Source: Brevibacillus laterosporus LMG 15441
GTDB taxonomy: Bacteria > Bacillota > Bacilli > Brevibacillales > Brevibacillaceae
Reading direction: 5' to 3'
Assembly: GCF_000219535.2 (NCBI RefSeq)
Contig: NZ_CP007806.1
Span: forward strand, 1,238,501 to 1,302,500
Length of the DNA stretch: 64,000 nucleotides
Shown here: positions 352 through 64,000 of the stretch, piece by piece
How the letters are laid out: each line of letters opens with the position of its first letter
Numbering within the stretch: position 1 is the first letter of the stretch
The notes under the pieces: generated by a model
The model's input: only the letters and a program-made list of their open reading frames with translations
Told to the model about the DNA's origin: nothing
Databases searched by the model: none
Translations under genes and position numbers: made by a program

Positions 352-1227
352 ATGAAAAAGTCTATTTTTACTCTATCAACAATATTTGTAGTAAGTGCAT
401 CACTTCTTGGATGCACGCAGCAATCTCAACCAACACAAGCAGATAATAAGGTTGCTCAAACAGATGCTGCACAAAAGGTAGAAGAGAAAAAAGATGCGAA
501 AGATACTTTAAAAGGTGTAACTGAAGCATATCGAACCTATTCTATTGATCAGATCGATCAATTTGTGGTTTCTACTGAAAAATTCGTAACGGCAGTAAAA
601 ACAGGGGATATGGAAACAGCGAAGAAACTATATGCTCCGTCACGCATGTACTACGAGCGCATTGAGCCAATTGCAGAATCCCTAGGAGATTTGGATCCTA
701 AAATTGACGCTCGTGACGGCGATGTACCAAAAGAAGAATGGGGCGGCTTCCATAAGATAGAGCAAGGTCTATGGGCAAACAAAACAACAAAAGGCTCTGA
801 AAAAGTGGCTGATCAGTTGCTAAATGATGCGAAGCTATTGCGTGCTAAGGTAGAAACAGTAGAAGTGACACCAGAGCTTCTGGTAACAGGCGCGGTTGAT
901 TTGTTAAATGAGGTATCATCCTCTAAGGTAACAGGAGAAGAAGAGCGTTACTCTCACACTGACTTGTATGACTTCGCTGCCAACGTAGAAGGAGCGCAAA
1001 AAATATATGAGCTGTTGCAACCAGCCTTGGTAGCAAAGGATCAGAAGTTATCAGATGAGATCAAAAAACGTTTTGATGATGTATTTGGATTATTGGCACC
1101 TTTCAAAAAAGGGGAAGATTATGCTTCTTATACTGAATTAAAACCAGATCAGGTCAAAAAACTTAGCCAAGCAATTGATGCACTTGCCGAGCCACTGTCT
1201 AAAATTGGTGTTGTGCTGGAGGGATAG
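352..1227 (+). CDS. efeO: EfeO, iron-binding lipoprotein of the EfeUOB system
   Basis: EfeO is the extracytoplasmic component of the EfeUOB elemental iron importer and is thought to bind ferric or ferrous iron and pass it to the EfeU permease. The 291-residue protein begins with a lipoprotein signal peptide whose lipobox (LLGC) puts the lipidated cysteine at residue 21. A charged linker follows, then an imelysin-like M75 domain with the conserved HxxE motif (HKIEQGLW, His134). A good ribosome binding site (AAGGGGAG) precedes the ATG. It is the first gene of an operon with efeB (6-base gap) and efeU, and the Fur box upstream explains its regulation. The family assignment is firm from motif and context; the exact iron species is not readable from sequence. 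Confidence 0.92.
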   Translation: MKKSIFTLSTIFVVSASLLGCTQQSQPTQADNKVAQTDAAQKVEEKKDAKDTLKGVTEAYRTYSIDQIDQFVVSTEKFVTAVKTGDMETAKKLYAPSRMYYERIEPIAESLGDLDPKIDARDGDVPKEEWGGFHKIEQGLWANKTTKGSEKVADQLLNDAKLLRAKVETVEVTPELLVTGAVDLLNEVSSSKVTGEEERYSHTDLYDFAANVEGAQKIYELLQPALVAKDQKLSDEIKKRFDDVFGLLAPFKKGEDYASYTELKPDQVKKLSQAIDALAEPLSKIGVVLEG

Positions 1228-15476: not shown

Positions 15477-16529
15477 TTGAACGGAATACTTTTTATCGGT
15501 CATGGTAGTAGAGATGCCGAGGGAAATGAGCATCTTCTACAGTTTACACAGCGAGTTACTGAATTGTTACAGGAACAAACAGACGTGACACTGTATGAGA
15601 CTTGTTTCTTGGAGTTAACCAGACCAACCATTATGCAGGGTGTGCAAAAAATAGTAGAACGTGGTGCTACCACTGTAGCAATGGTACCTTTAATGCTGTT
15701 TCAAGCAGCCCACGCTAAACTGCACATCCCGCATGAAATAGACGAGGCTAAGGCGAAATATCCCCATGTAGATTTTCGTTATGGGCGCCCCATAGGTGTG
15801 CATGAGGATATGGTGCAAATTTTGCGGGATCGCTTACAAAATACAACTGCCTATACTCCACTAGAACCGGCTAACAAGGATAGTGCCATTCTTTTAGTAG
15901 GTCGTGGTAGCAGTGATTCAGATGCAAACAGCGATCTTTGTAAAATAGCCCGCTTGTTATGGGAGAGCACAGGGGTAGGTAACGTTGAAGTGGCGTACAT
16001 GGGCGTTACCTATCCGACAGTGGAAGAAGGATTAGTCCGTTGTGTAAGACAGGGAGCTAAGCAGATTTATGTCCTTCCTTATTTGTTATTTACGGGTATC
16101 CTGTTAAAGCGTCTAGAAGAAAACTTACAACAGTTTCATCAGGACTTCCCTGATATACATGCCTCGATGAGCGAGGCATTAGGCTTCCATGAACTGCTAG
16201 AACAAATTGTAGTAGATCGTTCTATAGAAGCATTACAGGGACGGGCATTAGCCAACTGCGACCTTTGTCAATTTAGAAAACTTGCTGTATTCGATCACCA
16301 TCACCATCACGACCATGATCACGACCATGATCACGACCATGACCATGATCACCATCATGGCCACCACCATGACCATGATCACGACCATGACCATGATCAC
16401 CATCATGACCATGATCATCACCATGCAAACGGACATAGCCATACCCCTGTAACCCAAGAAGGGCAAACAGCCTGTAGCAAGGAGTCTCAGGCTACAGAAG
16501 CTGACGATAAACGGGGGGTACGTGTATGA
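15477..16529 (+). CDS. cbiX: CbiX, sirohydrochlorin cobaltochelatase with a His/Asp-rich metal-binding tail
   Basis: CbiX inserts cobalt into sirohydrochlorin, the entry step of the anaerobic B12 pathway. I choose the TTG at 15477, reading MNGILFIGHGSRD, because AAGGGGGGG lies just upstream and the chelatase fold begins there. An upstream in-frame ATG overlaps the end of cbiH. The protein (350 residues) has two CbiX repeats with the active-site His in GHGSRD and further His residues in AAHAKLHIPHE. A CDLC motif near residue 262, like the MxCxxC Fe-S site known in Bacillus megaterium CbiX, comes next. Then follow about 50 residues made almost only of His and Asp, which probably bind or store cobalt. 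It overlaps cbiJ by four bases. Confidence 0.93.
   Translation: MNGILFIGHGSRDAEGNEHLLQFTQRVTELLQEQTDVTLYETCFLELTRPTIMQGVQKIVERGATTVAMVPLMLFQAAHAKLHIPHEIDEAKAKYPHVDFRYGRPIGVHEDMVQILRDRLQNTTAYTPLEPANKDSAILLVGRGSSDSDANSDLCKIARLLWESTGVGNVEVAYMGVTYPTVEEGLVRCVRQGAKQIYVLPYLLFTGILLKRLEENLQQFHQDFPDIHASMSEALGFHELLEQIVVDRSIEALQGRALANCDLCQFRKLAVFDHHHHHDHDHDHDHDHDHDHHHGHHHDHDHDHDHDHHHDHDHHHANGHSHTPVTQEGQTACSKESQATEADDKRGVRV
16290..16445 (+). repeat. His/Asp codon repeat in cbiX
   Basis: A run of CAC/CAT and GAC/GAT codons (units such as GACCATGATCAC) encodes the metal-binding tail of CbiX. The reading frame is kept throughout. Such repeats can change length by slippage. Confidence 0.9.
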
Positions 16530-57101: not shown

Positions 57102-57133
57102 TCGCGCACAATATCCGATAGCATGGAATGCAT

Positions 57134-57207
57134 GCGCTGTTTCCTGATAAGGAGCATATTGTCATAACAGGAAAACGCTTGTTTGATCACCTTCAAACAA
57201 GCGTTTT
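57134..57207 (+). terminator. Terminator between ahbAB and hemL with a possible antiterminator
   Basis: AAAACGCTTGTTTGA (57172-57186) pairs perfectly with TCAAACAAGCGTTTT (57193-57207), followed by T residues: a strong intrinsic terminator inside the gene cluster. Upstream TTTCCTG (57140-57146) can pair with CAGGAAA (57168-57174), and GCG (57134-57136) with CGC (57176-57178). This alternative hairpin overlaps the terminator stem, so the two exclude each other. hemL is then either attenuated or has its own promoter. Confidence 0.75.
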
Positions 57208-57250
57208 TTCTACCAGTTTCACGATAACAGATTCTAATGGGGTGAGTGGA

Positions 57251-58543
57251 ATGACTCGACAATTCACGAAATCAATTGAACTACATAAAGAAGCGGTACA
57301 ATACATTCCCGGTGGGGTTAATAGTCCTGTGCGTGCATTTAAAAGCGTAGGGGGCAATCCTATTTATATTGAAAAAGGGGAAGGTTCCCGTATTACAGAT
57401 GTTGATGGGCATACTTATATTGATTATATTGGCTCCTGGGGACCTTTGATTTTGGGGCATGCTCATCCAAAAGTATTGCAGGCGATTAGTGAAACTGCTT
57501 TACTAGGTACTAGCTTTGGGGCACCTACAGAACGTGAAACCACAATGGCAAAGCTAGTGTGTGACATTGTTCCTTCAGTAGAAGTTGTGAGAATGGTAAA
57601 TTCAGGGACCGAAGCAACAATGAGTGCGCTTCGTTTGGCGCGTGGGTACACAAAGCGTGATAAAATTATGAAGTTTGAAGGCTGTTATCATGGCCACGCG
57701 GACAGTTTACTGATTAAGGCTGGTTCGGGTGTTGCCACCTTAGGCCTGCCGGATAGCCCTGGTGTGCCTGAAACAACTGCAGTAAATACGATTACGGTAC
57801 CATATAATGACATCGATAGTGTACGCCTTGCCTTTGAAAAATTCGGCTCAGAATTAGCTGCTGTTATTGTAGAACCAATTGGCGGAAACATGGGTGTAGT
57901 ACCACCTCAGCCGGGCTTTCTAGAGGAACTGCGTAGCATTACGGAAAAACATGGTACCGTGTTGATCTTTGATGAAGTAATGACAGGCTTCCGTGTAGCT
58001 CGCGGCGGTGCGCAAGACTTGTATCGTATCACACCTGATTTAACCACGATGGGTAAGGTCATTGGTGGCGGTTTGCCAGTCGGTGCATACGGTGGGAAAC
58101 GTGAAATTATGCAGCATGTAGCTCCAGCGGGAAGTGTGTATCAAGCAGGAACCTTATCAGGGAATCCATTAGCAATGGCAGCGGGTATTGCTACATTAAT
58201 GGAGCTTGGTAAGCCAGGGGTCTACGAACAGCTTGATGCTCGTTCAGCACGACTAGCAGAAGGCTTAGCGGCTAATGCGACTAAATTAGGAATTCCTCAT
58301 ACCGTAAATCGTGTTGGTTCGATGGTATGTTTATTCTTTACAGATACCCCAGTAATCAACTATGAGACAGCTAAAACTGCAGATGTAGATAAATTTTCGC
58401 GTTACTTCCAACAGTTGCTGCAAGAAGGGATCATGATTCCACCTTCCCAATTCGAAGGAATGTTTGTCTCCGTTATGCATACAGATGAAGATATTGAAAA
58501 GACCATTCAAGCAAGCTATAAGGCAATGGCTACCCTAGTCTAG
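57251..58543 (+). CDS. hemL: Glutamate-1-semialdehyde 2,1-aminomutase
   Basis: HemL converts glutamate-1-semialdehyde to 5-aminolevulinate with PLP. I choose the ATG of [15 protein letters not shown], the conserved start, preceded by a weak GGGGTGAG site; the frame is open upstream across the terminator. The 430 residues include [16 protein letters not shown], the aspartate in [13 protein letters not shown] and the PLP lysine in [18 protein letters not shown]. It acts before HemB in the pathway but is last in the cluster and separated from it by a terminator. Confidence 0.95.
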
Positions 58544-58723: not shown

Positions 58724-59179
58724 ATGGGAGGAGAGCGATTTACCGCACCAGTCACCGTGCATATTTTTTTGCGAAAAGATAACAACATTTTGCTATTAAG
58801 ACGATATCAGACCGGATACGAAGATGGTAATTACAGTGTTGTAGCCGGTCACCTTGATGGTGGTGAGCAGGTGATAGAAGCTGCGATTCGTGAAGCGCGT
58901 GAAGAAGCAGGCATCATCTTAAAGCCTGATCAAGTAACGATAACGGGCATTATGCATCGCTTGTCAAATGATGAGCGTATCGATTTTTTTGTAACGGCAA
59001 CAGAATGGTCCGGAGAGATTTATAATGCAGAGCCGCATAAATGTGATGAACTAGCATGGTTTTCTATTCATGATCTTCCCCAGAATACCATTTCGTACAT
59101 AAAAAAAGCGATTGAGCTTTCGGTCAGTCAATCTGACATTTGGTTTAATAGCTATGGATTTGACAATAAGGAGGGATAA
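58724..59179 (+). CDS. Nudix hydrolase
   Basis: A 151-residue Nudix-fold pyrophosphohydrolase. The complete Nudix box GX5EX7REUXEEXGU is present as GHLDGGEQVIEAAIREAREEAGI-type sequence (about residues 46-68). Its VHIFLRKDNNILLLRRY start is typical of small housekeeping Nudix proteins that clean up nucleotide derivatives; the substrate is unknown. AGGGAGGAATGAC precedes the ATG. It is probably co-transcribed with the next gene, whose ribosome binding site lies at its stop codon. It separates hemL from spoVID, which are adjacent in Bacillus. Confidence 0.9.
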   Translation: MGGERFTAPVTVHIFLRKDNNILLLRRYQTGYEDGNYSVVAGHLDGGEQVIEAAIREAREEAGIILKPDQVTITGIMHRLSNDERIDFFVTATEWSGEIYNAEPHKCDELAWFSIHDLPQNTISYIKKAIELSVSQSDIWFNSYGFDNKEG

Positions 59180-59180
59180 T

Positions 59181-60095
59181 GTGCAAACAGCGCTTGTTTT
59201 AGGGGGAACTCGTTTTTTTGGAAAAAGGTTGGTTCAGGAGCTTTTGGATAAAGGCATAAAAGTTACCCTTGCAAACCGAGGGATTACCGAAGATCCATTT
59301 GGTAAACAGGTAGAGAGAATTATTGTCGACCGTTATGATGAGGAATCCATGCTGTCTGCATTTGAGGATTATGAATTCGATATGATTTTTGATAATATTT
59401 GCTATTCATCAGAGGATGCTCGGATCGCTATAAAGGTTTTTACCGATAAAGTGTCCCGTTATATTTTTACATCTACGTTATCTGTTTATGACGAGGCAGA
59501 CAGATTTGTAACGGAAGAGGATTTTGATCCTTATCACTACCCTGTTGAATATGTGACGCGACAAGAAACATCCTATAAGGAAGGCAAACGTTTGGCCGAA
59601 GCTGTGTTCTTTCAAGAAGCTCCTTTTCCTGTAGCAGCCATTCGTTTTCCGATCGTTCTGGGGGATGATGATTATACGCGTCGTTTGCATTTTCACGTAG
59701 AGCATGTGATGAAACAATGGACGATCGGGATTCCGAACCTAGATGCAACTATTGGGTTTATTCCAGCTAACCAAGCTGCACGCTTTTTGCTATGGGCTGC
59801 TGAAGAGGAGCTGGAAGGGACCTTTAACGCTTGCTCCCATGGGGGTATTACATTAAAAGGACTTATCAGTCTGATTGAAGATAGTACAGGCAAACAAGCT
59901 ATTATTATGTCAGAAACAGCAGATGAACATATGTCTCCGTTCGGGATAACCCAATCAGTATGGTGCATGAGTAACGAAAAGGCAAAGGAGACAGGCTTTT
60001 TATTCGTTCCTTTACAAGAATGGCTACCATCACTTATTCAGAGAATCACGAAAACATTCGAAAAAGAAGAGAGTTATTTAAGTAATCATGAGTAA
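59181..60095 (+). CDS. NAD-dependent epimerase/dehydratase-family protein
   Basis: A 304-residue short-chain dehydrogenase of the extended (epimerase) type. The GTG of VQTALVLGGTRFFG follows AAGGAGGG by five bases; the open frame extends upstream within the Nudix gene but without a domain there. The N-terminal GGTRFFGKRLV is the nucleotide-binding loop. The central FTSTLSVYDEAD and YKEGKRLAE hold the Ser/Tyr/Lys catalytic residues in somewhat altered context. It resembles isoflavone-reductase-like and sugar-nucleotide epimerases of unknown substrate. It overlaps functionally with no neighbour I can name. Confidence 0.85.
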   Translation: MQTALVLGGTRFFGKRLVQELLDKGIKVTLANRGITEDPFGKQVERIIVDRYDEESMLSAFEDYEFDMIFDNICYSSEDARIAIKVFTDKVSRYIFTSTLSVYDEADRFVTEEDFDPYHYPVEYVTRQETSYKEGKRLAEAVFFQEAPFPVAAIRFPIVLGDDDYTRRLHFHVEHVMKQWTIGIPNLDATIGFIPANQAARFLLWAAEEELEGTFNACSHGGITLKGLISLIEDSTGKQAIIMSETADEHMSPFGITQSVWCMSNEKAKETGFLFVPLQEWLPSLIQRITKTFEKEESYLSNHE

Positions 60096-60140
60096 ATATG
60101 TACGATCATCTAAAAGAGGCTGGTTGTACGTTTTAATGAG

Positions 60141-60181
60141 AAGTCCCGTTTTACCTATCAAGGTAGAGCGGGATTTTTTTG
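60141..60181 (+). terminator. Terminator of the Nudix-epimerase pair
   Basis: AATCCCGCT-type stem: AAGTCCCGTTTTACCT pairs with AGGTAGAGCGGGATTTTTTT, with one bulge, ending in seven T residues. Confidence 0.8.
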
Positions 60182-60295
60182 ATCCGACTAGCTAAGACGT
60201 AACCTTATGCCAAATCATTCTCTTATGTTCTATTTTTGTTGCTCTGTCCATATAGATATAGGGAAATGCTTGTGGAGCTGAAAGGAGGAGCAGGT

Positions 60296-63200
60296 GTGTC
60301 TGTACAAGATGGACTGTTATCGTTTCAAATGAAAGAGACTATATTTCTCTCATCAGATAAACCAGAAATTGAAGAGCTACGGGAACTGGAGTTATTACCC
60401 GATTTAGAGATAAGGGAAAATGATTATGAGATTACGATATGTGGGTCCTTACAACTGCGAGGCAAGTATGTGCCGACCAAGAACGCCAATGCAAATGGCG
60501 GAACGGACACCTTGGTTTCGGCAATGAGATTTACTCCGTTGCAGTTGGAACAAGGAGATGCTAGCGTTTTTTTCTCTGATGAAGAGGCGGAGATCATGCA
60601 TCGTATCCCAATAAGTATCTCTGTTCCTATTTCCAGAACCAAAGAGGTTTCTGATATTCATGGGATTATTGATAGTTTTGATTATGAGATAAAAGGCCCT
60701 AAACAATTACTTATTACCGCTGACCTGATAATAGATGGAATCCAGCTAAAGAATGAACAGGAGATTCGTGCTGAGCAGCAATCGCAAAAATCACCTGATA
60801 CCTGGGAATATATACAAGTAGCTGACGATGAGAGTGAAGAACAGGAATATCAGCATGTCACTATTGATGATCTAGAACGAAAGCTGACCGCTCTAGAGAA
60901 AGAAGTAGAGTCCCAATTGGAACATCAGAACGAAGACGGACAAGAATTGATAGATGAGATTGCGCATGCAGAGTACCAGCAAAATGAACAGTACGAGCAA
61001 TATGGGCAAAATAATCAATATTATCAATACGAGCAAAATGCGCAAAATGATCAATATCATCAATACGAGCATAGTGCGCAAAATGATCAATATCATCAAT
61101 ACGAGCATAGTGCGCAAAATGATCAATATCATCAATACGAACATAGTGCGCAAAATGATCAATATCATCAATACGAGCATAGTGCGCAAAATGATCAATA
61201 TCATCAATACGAGCATAGTGCGCAAGATGATCAATATCATCAAAATGAGCATAGTGCGCAAAATGATCAATATCATCAATACGAGCAAAGTGCGCAAGAT
61301 GATCAATATCATCAAAATGAGCAGTATGCGCAAAATGATCAATATCAACAATACGAGCATAGTGCACAAAATGATCAATATCAACAATACGAGCAATATG
61401 AGCAAATTAATCAAAATAATCCGTTTGATCAATTCGAGAAAACCAACCAATACCAGCCATATCAACCATTTCCGGGTTTTCAGATGCAGTCAGAAGATAT
61501 AGCTCAAAATAACTGGGATCAAGATTCGGCGACACGGTTTCGTTATCAGCATCCACAATATGAGGCATATGAAACAGCAGCTGATGAAGCAGAACGGGAA
61601 GAAATCGATGAAATCCAGCAATCAGGAAATGGACCTTATCAAACATATTCAAATCTACAATCAGATTTCAAAGGACAGCAATCACCTTACGAACATGGAT
61701 TTCACCCAATTTCTAGGCCAGAACCCCCGCAGTATGCACCGCCGTATGGTACACCGCCGTTTTATCAAACAAATTCTTACCAGCAGGGATCAGGACACCA
61801 GGGACCGGGCCGCGGATTAGGTGTAGACTCGAACCCTATTCCTTTTGCCCCACCACCTCCAAATCCATTTCAGCCGATGGCAGGGCCGTTTTATCAACAG
61901 CAGCCACCACAATATCCGTTTGCCCAGATGCCACCATATGCACCACCACAACAAATGTTTTATCAACCACCTCCATTTCCACCTAGCCCAGTCCCTCAAC
62001 CTGTTGCTGGCATGCAGTACCAACCTGAGCATATCGCTAAATCTCTATATCAAGCTTCGTATCAGCCGCCTAATCCTAATGAATATGTGAGGGAGTCAGT
62101 GGAAGATCAGGAGGCAATGACTGATGGAGTGTATGTAGAACCAGTCTCCTATCATGAGCAGGTTGAAACAGAAGTAGATATAGAGGAGAAGGAGAGTAAA
62201 TCTTTTTACGAAGAAGTTACTTTTAAGGAGGAGTCACCTCACCTTGAGCAATCTGCATCATTTGAATTAATTGCAGAGCATCAGGAAACATCGAGAGAGC
62301 CAAAGGAAGCTGTTGCAAAGCACCAAGAAACCGTTCCAGAGCTAAAAGAAGCCGTTGCAAAATCCCAAGAGACAGTTGCCGAACCAAAAGAGGTTGCTGA
62401 AAAACGCCAAGAAACCGTTCCAGAGCCAAAAGAAGCTATTGCAAAATCGCAAGAAATAGCTCCAGAGCTAAAGGAAGCCGTTGCAAAATCCCAAGAGACG
62501 GTTGCCGAACTAAAAGAAGTTGCTGAAAACCGTCAAGAAACCGTTCCAGAGCCAAAAGAAGCTATTGCAAAATCGCAAGAAATAGCTCCAGAGCCAAAGG
62601 AAGCCGTTGCAAAAACCCAAGAGACGGTTGCCGAACTAAAAGAAGTTGCAGAAAAACGCCAAGAAACCGTTCCGGAGCCAAAAGAAGCCGTTGCAAAACC
62701 GCAAGAAATAGCTCCAGAGCTAAAGGAAGCCGTTGCAAAACCGCAAGAGACAGTTGCCGAACCAAAAGAGGTTGCTAAAAAACGCCAAGAAACCGTTCCG
62801 GAGCCAAAAGAGGCCGTTGCAAAACCGCAAGAAATAGCTCCAGAGCCAAAAGAAGCCGTTGCAAAATCTCAAGAGACAGTTGCCGAACCAAAAGAGGTTG
62901 CTGAAAAGCGCCAAGAAACCGTTCCGGAGCCAAAAGAAGCCGTTGCAAAACCGCAAGAAATAGCTCCAGAGCCAAAGGAAGCCGTTGTAAAAACCCAAGA
63001 GACAGTTGCTGAACCAAAAGAAGTTGCTGAAAAACGCCAAGAAACCGTTCCGGAGCCAAAAAAGGCCGTTGCAAAAACCCAAGAGACAGTTGCCGAACCA
63101 AAAGAAGTTGCTGAAAAACGCCAAGAAACTGTTCCGGAGCCAAAAGAAGCCGTTGCAAAACCGCAAGAAATAGCTCCAGAGCCAAAGGAAGCCGTTGCAA

Positions 63201-64000
63201 AAACCCAAGAGACGGTTGCCAAACACCAAGAAGTAGCTCCAAAACCAAAAGAAGCTGCAACGAAACGCCCGGAGGTAACTCCAGAACCAAAAGAAGTTGT
63301 TACGAAACAACATGAAGAGCGGATAGAGAATCATCACTCTCAATCAACAGTGCAATTAGTTGAGGGGAGTGAAGGAGATCAGGTAGATATAACCACAACA
63401 GCAAAAAAAGAAGCAATAACAGAAAGAATAACAGAAAGAATAACAGAAACAGCAACAGAAACTGCCAAAGTACATGTCGAACTAGATGAAAATAAGGTAA
63501 AAGTTCATACAGCAGATTATGATCAGGAGCAACAAGAGCCTACTATCAGGACGGAATTAAGCACAGAAGAAGAGGCAACTGTGCTCATGGCTCAATTGGA
63601 GAAGGAAGAAGCAAAATCGGCAGAGGAAAATACAGCATCCCAAGTTGAACAGGAAAAAGAAATGAAGGTTGCAATTGGCTCAAAAAACAATCATAAAGAG
63701 CAAAATGAAATGATGAACTTCTCCAATATTTTCTCACACTTACATGGAAATGAGAAAAATAAAAATCTGCGTGAGGAGAGTAAACAAGAGGAGGAGCTTT
63801 CAGAGCAAACGAAAGCAAAACGTGATACCAGTAGTTCACGTAAAGATGCATTAGGGAATCTAACTTCATTTGTTCAAGATCGCACAGAAAAATTCAGTAA
63901 ATTGAAAATGTGCATTATCCAAAAAAATGATACCTTAGATTCCATTGCACAGCGGTATGAAATGTCCGTAAGCAAAATTAAAGAAGCAAATCGAATGTCA
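60296..64000 (+). CDS. spoVID: SpoVID, spore coat encasement protein, giant repeat-rich form (incomplete at the window edge)
   Basis: SpoVID is the morphogenetic protein that spreads coat layers around the forespore. The GTG at 60296 follows AAAGGAGGAG. At least 1235 residues are encoded, and the frame is still open at 64000; Bacillus subtilis SpoVID has about 575. The first 170 residues match the SpoVID N-domain (DGLLSFQMKETIFLSSDKPE, LQLRGKYVP). Then come an acidic stretch, ten 12-residue Gln/Tyr/His repeats (residues about 250-369), a Pro/Gln/Tyr-rich region (about 470-600), 21 or more 14-residue Lys/Glu/Pro repeats (about 670-963) and an acidic linker. At the right edge the start of a C-terminal LysM domain appears (CIIQKNDTLDSIAQRYEMS). 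Position after hemL fits Bacillus. Mother-cell sigma E control is inferred. Confidence 0.92.
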   Translation, partial: MSVQDGLLSFQMKETIFLSSDKPEIEELRELELLPDLEIRENDYEITICGSLQLRGKYVPTKNANANGGTDTLVSAMRFTPLQLEQGDASVFFSDEEAEIMHRIPISISVPISRTKEVSDIHGIIDSFDYEIKGPKQLLITADLIIDGIQLKNEQEIRAEQQSQKSPDTWEYIQVADDESEEQEYQHVTIDDLERKLTALEKEVESQLEHQNEDGQELIDEIAHAEYQQNEQYEQYGQNNQYYQYEQNAQNDQYHQYEHSAQNDQYHQYEHSAQNDQYHQYEHSAQNDQYHQYEHSAQNDQYHQYEHSAQDDQYHQNEHSAQNDQYHQYEQSAQDDQYHQNEQYAQNDQYQQYEHSAQNDQYQQYEQYEQINQNNPFDQFEKTNQYQPYQPFPGFQMQSEDIAQNNWDQDSATRFRYQHPQYEAYETAADEAEREEIDEIQQSGNGPYQTYSNLQSDFKGQQSPYEHGFHPISRPEPPQYAPPYGTPPFYQTNSYQQGSGHQGPGRGLGVDSNPIPFAPPPPNPFQPMAGPFYQQQPPQYPFAQMPPYAPPQQMFYQPPPFPPSPVPQPVAGMQYQPEHIAKSLYQASYQPPNPNEYVRESVEDQEAMTDGVYVEPVSYHEQVETEVDIEEKESKSFYEEVTFKEESPHLEQSASFELIAEHQETSREPKEAVAKHQETVPELKEAVAKSQETVAEPKEVAEKRQETVPEPKEAIAKSQEIAPELKEAVAKSQETVAELKEVAENRQETVPEPKEAIAKSQEIAPEPKEAVAKTQETVAELKEVAEKRQETVPEPKEAVAKPQEIAPELKEAVAKPQETVAEPKEVAKKRQETVPEPKEAVAKPQEIAPEPKEAVAKSQETVAEPKEVAEKRQETVPEPKEAVAKPQEIAPEPKEAVVKTQETVAEPKEVAEKRQETVPEPKKAVAKTQETVAEPKEVAEKRQETVPEPKEAVAKPQEIAPEPKEAVAKTQETVAKHQEVAPKPKEAATKRPEVTPEPKEVVTKQHEERIENHHSQSTVQLVEGSEGDQVDITTTAKKEAITERITERITETATETAKVHVELDENKVKVHTADYDQEQQEPTIRTELSTEEEATVLMAQLEKEEAKSAEENTASQVEQEKEMKVAIGSKNNHKEQNEMMNFSNIFSHLHGNEKNKNLREESKQEEELSEQTKAKRDTSSSRKDALGNLTSFVQDRTEKFSKLKMCIIQKNDTLDSIAQRYEMSVSKIKEANRMS
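61043..61402 (+). repeat. Ten tandem 36-base repeats in spoVID (12-residue unit)
   Basis: Ten head-to-tail units of 36 bases encode QNDQYHQYEHSA or close variants (QDDQYHQNEHSA, QNDQYQQYEHSA). The first five are nearly identical at the DNA level, and later ones drift. Unit length is a multiple of three, so copy number can change without breaking the frame. There are no spacers, so it is not a CRISPR array. Confidence 0.95.
62303..63184 (+). repeat. 21 tandem 42-base repeats in spoVID (14-residue unit), with a 126-base higher order
   Basis: Twenty-one units of 14 residues follow one another exactly in phase. Three types alternate: KEAVAKxQETVAEP, KEVAEKRQETVPEP and KEAVAKPQEIAPEP. Together they make a 42-residue (126-base) superunit. 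Two or three degenerate units extend the array to about 63310. Every unit ends in Glu-Pro or Glu-Leu, giving 12-residue charged, probably helical blocks. Confidence 0.95.

Follow-up and report, generated by a model that had tools for sequence, protein, structure and literature searches.

Why is the SpoVID protein of Brevibacillus laterosporus so much longer than its counterpart in Bacillus subtilis, and would the additional residues change the way in which the spore coat is built? The question arises at the end of a 64,000-nucleotide stretch of the B. laterosporus LMG 15441 chromosome (NZ_CP007806.1, positions 1,238,501 to 1,302,500, forward strand; the whole stretch is called the window below), where the reading frame of spoVID is open up to the last letter. 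In B. subtilis, SpoVID links the basement layer of the spore to the hubs from which the coat is built (PMC6282716). The variant described here is real and lineage-specific, carries fast-evolving in-frame arrays in its linker and is the longest among the matches listed in a class-wide comparison; it is not a new kind of system. Our preferred explanation, to which we assign a probability of about 0.53, is that an otherwise ordinary SpoVID hub possesses a repeat-expanded, disordered tether that would affect coat geometry mechanically.

An initial inspection of the DNA letters (hereafter the sequence-only reading) had named the gene spoVID, and this identity is borne out by both terminal domains, which score above their Pfam cut-offs: SPOCS_spoVID-N (PF20918) reaches 87.6 bits (cut-off 27.1), and LysM (PF01476; 43.6 bits, cut-off 20.9) closes the protein at residues 1207-1248 of 1249. 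SpoVID is the single SPOCS_spoVID-N match in the whole genome (G000; 5,153,859 bases in three contigs, with a chromosome of 5,114,147), and a search for solved structures related by sequence to this domain returned none at E 0.1. The gene begins with a GTG codon, just 3' of a ribosome-binding site, AAAGGAGG, read directly in the sequence. The frame had been recorded as still open at the window edge, yet already more than twice as long as in B. subtilis. Following it into the chromosome places the stop codon at 64043-64045 in window-equivalent numbering, 45 bases beyond the window (locus L002, 2797-6546), with the LysM domain complete; the protein is thus 2.2 times as long as that of B. subtilis, whose residues are numbered to 575 (PMC10659427), and the earlier estimate holds. 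On these grounds we identify the gene as the SpoVID ortholog of B. laterosporus. A scan of positions 60000-60400 found neither a sigma-70 promoter nor a terminator, sigma-E promoters being outside its scope. By eye, we also considered that translation might start a second time inside the linker, at a Met codon near 62117 preceded by AGGAGG, but discarded this because the Met is not retained in two related genomes (G003 and G004, introduced below).

The protein was compared across 39 Brevibacillaceae genomes, five from the genus (G000 to G004) and 34 others; a search of the whole order drew on this set as well. Each of them yields exactly one SPOCS_spoVID-N match. Within the genus, SpoVID measures 1249 residues in G000, 1058 in G003, 855 in G001 and 582 in G002, and 609 in G004, where it is ended by the end of the contig. 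The 34 proteins from outside the genus span 470-676 residues where complete (that of G026 ends at 649, at the end of its locus); they share the conserved N-domain, pre-LysM segment and LysM of the window protein, contain no EPKE units and possess 0-4 QY or NY pairs each. A class-wide draw of 398 genomes gave matches in 190, and among the 150 places listed, with the weakest left out, the longest frames (measured stop to stop and copied by hand) were 1280 in G000, 1093 in G003 and 866 in G001, followed by 719, with a median of 474. The top three among these listed matches therefore all come from one genus.

The location of the extra length is apparent from two conserved motifs. The distance from ERKL to KVAI amounts to 926 residues in G000, 734 in G003 and 533 in G001, and to 156-323 in the nine remaining proteins with both motifs, among them that of G002 with 263; outside this span, the protein is of nearly constant size (314-357 residues in the 11 proteins counted, G026 being omitted). 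Simple patterns for the two motifs found both in 12 of the 39 proteins and missed at least one in 27. An alignment of 37 of the 39 proteins (the incomplete G004 and G026 were omitted) shows well-filled, conserved columns at both ends, with one Thr, that of the LysM motif NDTL, shared by all 37; opposite residues 226-375, hardly any protein other than that of G000 contributes residues. The columns under the 14-residue repeats described below are partly filled, most likely by an unrelated acidic linker of the other species. Judging from this alignment, the additional length sits in the middle linker, and the ends are conserved across the Brevibacillaceae. In a tree of the first 205 residues, G002 and then G001 fall outside the other three genomes of the genus, with support of 0.97 for the five genus genomes, 0.98 for four, 0.58 for three and 0.78 for the pair G000 and G004.

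What, then, does the linker consist of? Two tandem arrays, of 12-residue and 14-residue units, are separated by a Pro/Gln/Tyr-rich stretch. Tandem Repeats Finder reported a 36-bp unit in 11.9 copies at 60992-61421 (score 665) and a 126-bp unit in 7.3 copies at 62296-63210 (score 1291). At the protein level, residue identity is 0.78 at lag 12 in the first region (shuffled maximum 0.31) and 0.79 at lag 42 in the second (shuffled maximum 0.22), each maximum being the highest over 200 shuffles and all lags; the stretch between them shows no periodicity by the same measure (0.14 versus 0.16 for the shuffled sequence). Both arrays are real and far beyond chance. The 14-mers are grouped in threes, DNA identity between units being 0.90 at an offset of three units, 0.72 at one and 0.75 at two, and a 7-residue sub-pattern can be discerned by eye. 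The sequence-only reading had attributed the added length to two arrays together with a Pro/Gln/Tyr-rich region, and repeat finding, lag identities and the family alignment agree on this point. A search of the genome with the 14-mer region found only the region itself, ruling out that this repeat is common to other proteins of G000. The titles and abstract openings of the literature searched contained no mention of repeats in SpoVID, which is no proof of their absence from print; likewise, the extracts of PMC6282716 and PMC10659427 used here mention no tandem arrays in the B. subtilis protein.

The linker is predicted to be largely disordered. By their charge and hydropathy, all seven stretches tested within residues 151-1204 are classed as disordered, and an AlphaFold model of the 14-mer region alone has a mean predicted local distance difference test score (pLDDT) of 45.6, weak evidence from one sequence. 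Pro, Glu, Val and Lys together make up 61% of the 14-mer region in the window protein and 69% in G003. The PEVK segment of titin is a polyampholyte spacer, and the 14-mer region resembles it in composition alone; no homology is claimed.

The arrays are unevenly distributed among the closest relatives. The 14-mer array is present in three of the five genus genomes (G000, G003 and G004), at the same place and with similar boundaries. In the separately assembled, single-contig G003, it comprises 21 units, whose consensus differs, and the 12-mer array is missing. In G004, an irregular Gln/Tyr tract stands in place of the clean 12-mer array and is followed by the beginning of a 14-mer array within which the contig breaks, the end of the array and the C-terminus lying on another contig. 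Neither array is found in G001 or G002. The tetrapeptide EPKE occurs 17 times in G000, 20 times in G003 and twice in the incomplete G004, and is absent from the other 36 of the 39 proteins. Identical arrays in all related species had been named beforehand as an observation that would speak against a special role, and this is not what we see: the arrays differ even among the closest genomes. Every 14-mer unit of G000 and G003 is nearest to a unit of its own array (45/45), and the mean identity of units within G000 (0.74) hardly exceeds that between the G000 and G003 arrays (0.72). Given the alike boundaries, a single ancestral 14-mer array has most likely been rewritten separately in each lineage. 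Downstream of the array, a Y-x-K-Y-W motif found in G001, G003 and G004 is missing from the window protein (around 63350-63385), as if by in-frame deletion.

Repeats as such also occur in SpoVID linkers beyond the genus; it is their extent that is special to it. Local linker repeats (lags 4-42, identity at least 0.6) were detected in 8 of the 39 proteins, namely those of G000, G003, G004, G008, G026, G030, G032 and G033. The five repeats from outside the genus lie on loci L020, L009, L044, L045 and L049; that of G008, for example, is a 6-residue QQTHAV repeat.

We next consider selection on these sequences, expressed as the ratio of nonsynonymous to synonymous differences per site (pN/pS). Among units of the window protein it is 0.37 for the 24 14-mers, 0.28 for the first six 42-mers and 0.39 for the 10 12-mers, and among the 21 14-mers of G003 it is again 0.37, suggesting that the residues of the units are under some constraint. 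Between G000 and G003, the ratio is 0.15 for the N-domain, 0.44 for residues 151-224, 0.29 for the Pro/Gln/Tyr linker, 0.38 for the post-array part, 0.08 for the pre-LysM segment and 0.11 for LysM; between G000 and G004 it is 0.23, 0.18 and 0.45 for the first three of these. Against the more distant G001 it is 0.27 for the N-domain, 0.50 for the pre-LysM segment and 0.32 for LysM, with synonymous sites near saturation (pS 0.67-0.78). The domains are more constrained than the array units, clearly so in the comparison with G003 and less clearly in that with G001.

What the conserved ends may do can be judged from B. subtilis, where SafA and CotE are bound by the SpoVID N-domain, region A ahead of LysM binds SpoIVA, and the middle of the protein is described as possibly extended (PMC6282716). 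Encasement in that species is driven by the N-domain. The C-terminus is reported to sense SpoIVA polymerisation: SpoIVA polymers mask it, and when exposed it sequesters lipid II (PMC10659427). The window protein has the same architecture of N-terminal domain, middle and C-terminal region A/LysM, its pre-LysM segment presumably corresponding, by position, to region A. A SafA-family match above cut-off is found in all five genus genomes and CotE in 39/39 family genomes; since these partner genes are present and both ends are conserved, the hub role of SpoVID has very likely been retained. SafA, the partner of SpoVID in the B. subtilis pathway, resembles the window protein in combining LysM with a low-complexity tail and differs in that its LysM is N-terminal; it has 452 residues in G000. 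Two side observations concern SafA: the SafA LysM model matches 20 times in G002 compared with 8-9 times in the remaining genus genomes, and the SafA of G001 (L056:346-1647) is interrupted within its Pro-rich part and so occupies two frames, through either a draft-assembly frameshift or a real break.

In the tether reading, the N-domain would recruit coat proteins and the C-terminal segment with LysM would bind SpoIVA and, in the checkpoint, lipid II, as in B. subtilis, while the middle linker would owe its length of about 926 residues to 36-bp and 42/126-bp units multiplied in frame, through slippage or unequal recombination. Its Gln/Tyr/Pro-rich half may be self-associating, and its Lys/Glu/Pro/Val-rich half would form a polyampholyte spacer of small net charge. 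Compared with other species, the coat-recruiting N-domain could then be held at a greater distance from the basement layer or occupy a larger space, and the linker most likely acts as both a long tether and a space-filling element.

Several results weigh against this interpretation. The array units are about as constrained as the adjoining linker (Pro/Gln/Tyr stretch and post-array part), and array presence differs between very close relatives. The five non-genus proteins mentioned above, out of 34, carry small, unrelated linker repeats with local identities of 0.61-0.86. Both observations would be expected of a linker that can accept nearly any sequence. AlphaFold places low-confidence helices in approximately the first 130 of the 345 residues of the 14-mer region and in residues 305-319, so the region may not be a plain coil. 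Finally, the NCBIfam SpoVID model TIGR02907, although the best match, scores below its cut-off (132.4 versus 169.85); since the two family members of ordinary length that were scored are likewise below it (159.2 and 121.9), this cut-off, which is an annotation threshold and not a biological feature, fails to set the long form apart.

The most serious rival holds that the arrays are neutral, slippage and unequal crossing-over having lengthened a tolerant linker with no consequence for the coat; we consider this quite possible, at clearly less than even odds. The unrelated linker repeats in the five non-genus members make it weightier, and it agrees with the variation in linker length and composition among relatives, with the self-resemblance of each array, which indicates that the arrays are being rewritten, and with the restriction of the 14-mer region to one protein of the genome. 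It accounts less readily for the concentration of the three longest of the listed frames in one genus, for the retention of the 14-mer array at the same place across three species-level genomes, and for the low pN/pS among units.

Three further proposals seem to us improbable to a similar degree. The long linker might retune the coat-cortex checkpoint, the LysM end reaching lipid II, or being kept from it, independently of the N-domain. The occlusion of the C-terminus by SpoIVA in B. subtilis and the invariant LysM Thr fit such a role; on the other hand, residues 501-575 alone restored SpoVK placement in that species, and LysM alone restored its level (PMC10659427), so tether length need not matter, and we regard the checkpoint proposal as unlikely. 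The sequence-only reading had suggested a link to the canoe-shaped parasporal body of this species, which the arrays would attach or pattern. The 14-mer array is indeed confined to three close genomes among the 39, but G003 lacks the clean 12-mer array, of which G004 has no more than an irregular counterpart, and the proteins reported for the coat/parasporal body complex are others, ExsC, CHRD, CpbA and CpbB (PMC5335551). The suggestion drew on species identity, is not sustained by these data and appears doubtful. A bolder version of the tether would see the linker as an evolvable ruler, its copy number setting the distance between basement layer and coat hubs, and its extreme growth in the laterosporus clade helping to build the lopsided, canoe-bearing spore, perhaps with a cohesive role assumed once the spore transglutaminase Tgl was lost; we hold this for a long shot.

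That the Gln- and Lys-containing units serve as isopeptide cross-linking substrates of Tgl is very improbable. Lys occurs in 24 of the 24 14-mers and Gln in 23, and SafA, GerQ and YeeK are Tgl substrates in B. subtilis (PMC6490927), but none of the five genus genomes contains a match to the enzyme family (PF20085), compared with 31 of the 34 other family genomes, a distribution that disfavours such cross-linking. The three non-genus genomes without Tgl (G036, G037 and G038) encode SpoVID proteins of 540, 474 and 564 residues; Tgl loss alone is therefore no predictor of a long linker.

An assembly or frame artefact, which had been raised beforehand as the way in which the arrays could prove spurious and for which one may cite the difficulty of assembling repeats and the broken contig of G004, is the least credible of all, as the unit lengths are divisible by three, 1249 codons pass without a stop and the single-contig G003 has the same kind of array at the same place. 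The exact copy number of the arrays is uncertain.

The features discussed are collected in the table. The sequence-only reading had placed the gene after hemL, which is correct as to the upstream side; the two are nevertheless not adjacent, a NUDIX gene and an epimerase-like gene intervening. On the 3' side, spoVID is followed by a CotS-like gene, a ysxE-like gene, an open reading frame without an NCBIfam match and valS (1228.8 bits, cut-off 612.1), so that the gene is flanked by a hemL side and a valS side. The neighbours of spoVID in B. subtilis, which we take to be hemL, ysxE and valS, are similar, the window differing in the two genes that separate hemL from spoVID. The two coat-kinase-like genes (L002:6561-8536), the first nearest to CotS and the second to YsxE, both score below NCBIfam cut-offs, and a T-box leader (RF00230) lies 5' of valS at L002:9925-10204. 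Elsewhere in the window, the open reading frame at 15453-16529 matches sirohydrochlorin nickelochelatase models below cut-off (94.4 versus 120) and contains a tandem repeat (16300-16425) that codes for a long tail rich in His and Asp.

Table. Features of the spoVID locus, in window coordinates.
Feature	Position	Strand	Residues	Details	Basis
hemL, upstream neighbour	57128..58543	+		650.1 bits, cut-off 527.3	TIGR00713
NUDIX gene	58724-59179			between hemL and spoVID	
Epimerase-like gene	59181-60095			between NUDIX gene and spoVID	
spoVID	60296..64000	+	1249, complete	runs on to 64045, beyond the window	open frame, chromosome sequence, Pfam
SPOCS_spoVID-N domain, N-terminal	60296..60745	+	1-150	Pfam match 8-149	Pfam; conserved in family alignment
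Conserved segment, linker start	60857..60898	+	188-201	VTIDDLERKLTALE	family motif search, alignment
Gln/Tyr/His-rich region	60971..61417	+	226-374	10 fairly clean 12-mers at 61028-61387, commonest YEHSAQNDQYHQ	
Pro/Gln/Tyr-rich non-periodic linker	61418..62095	+	375-600		
Lys/Glu/Pro/Val-rich array	62297..63304	+		24 units of 14 residues, e.g. EPKEAVAKPQEIAP; 42-residue higher-order unit; last two units divergent	
Conserved pre-LysM segment	63641..63907	+	within 1116-1204	KVAIGSK...NFSNIF...NLTSFVQDRTEKFSKLK	motif search, alignment
LysM domain	63908..64000	+	first 31 of domain	completed at 64042	

If tether length in a coat hub does determine coat geometry, it would offer a genetic handle on how the spores of different species gain different outer layers. 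The genus itself provides a natural series of linker lengths (263, 533, 734 and 926 residues in G002, G001, G003 and G000, respectively), which constitutes a ready test of the relation between tether length and coat geometry.

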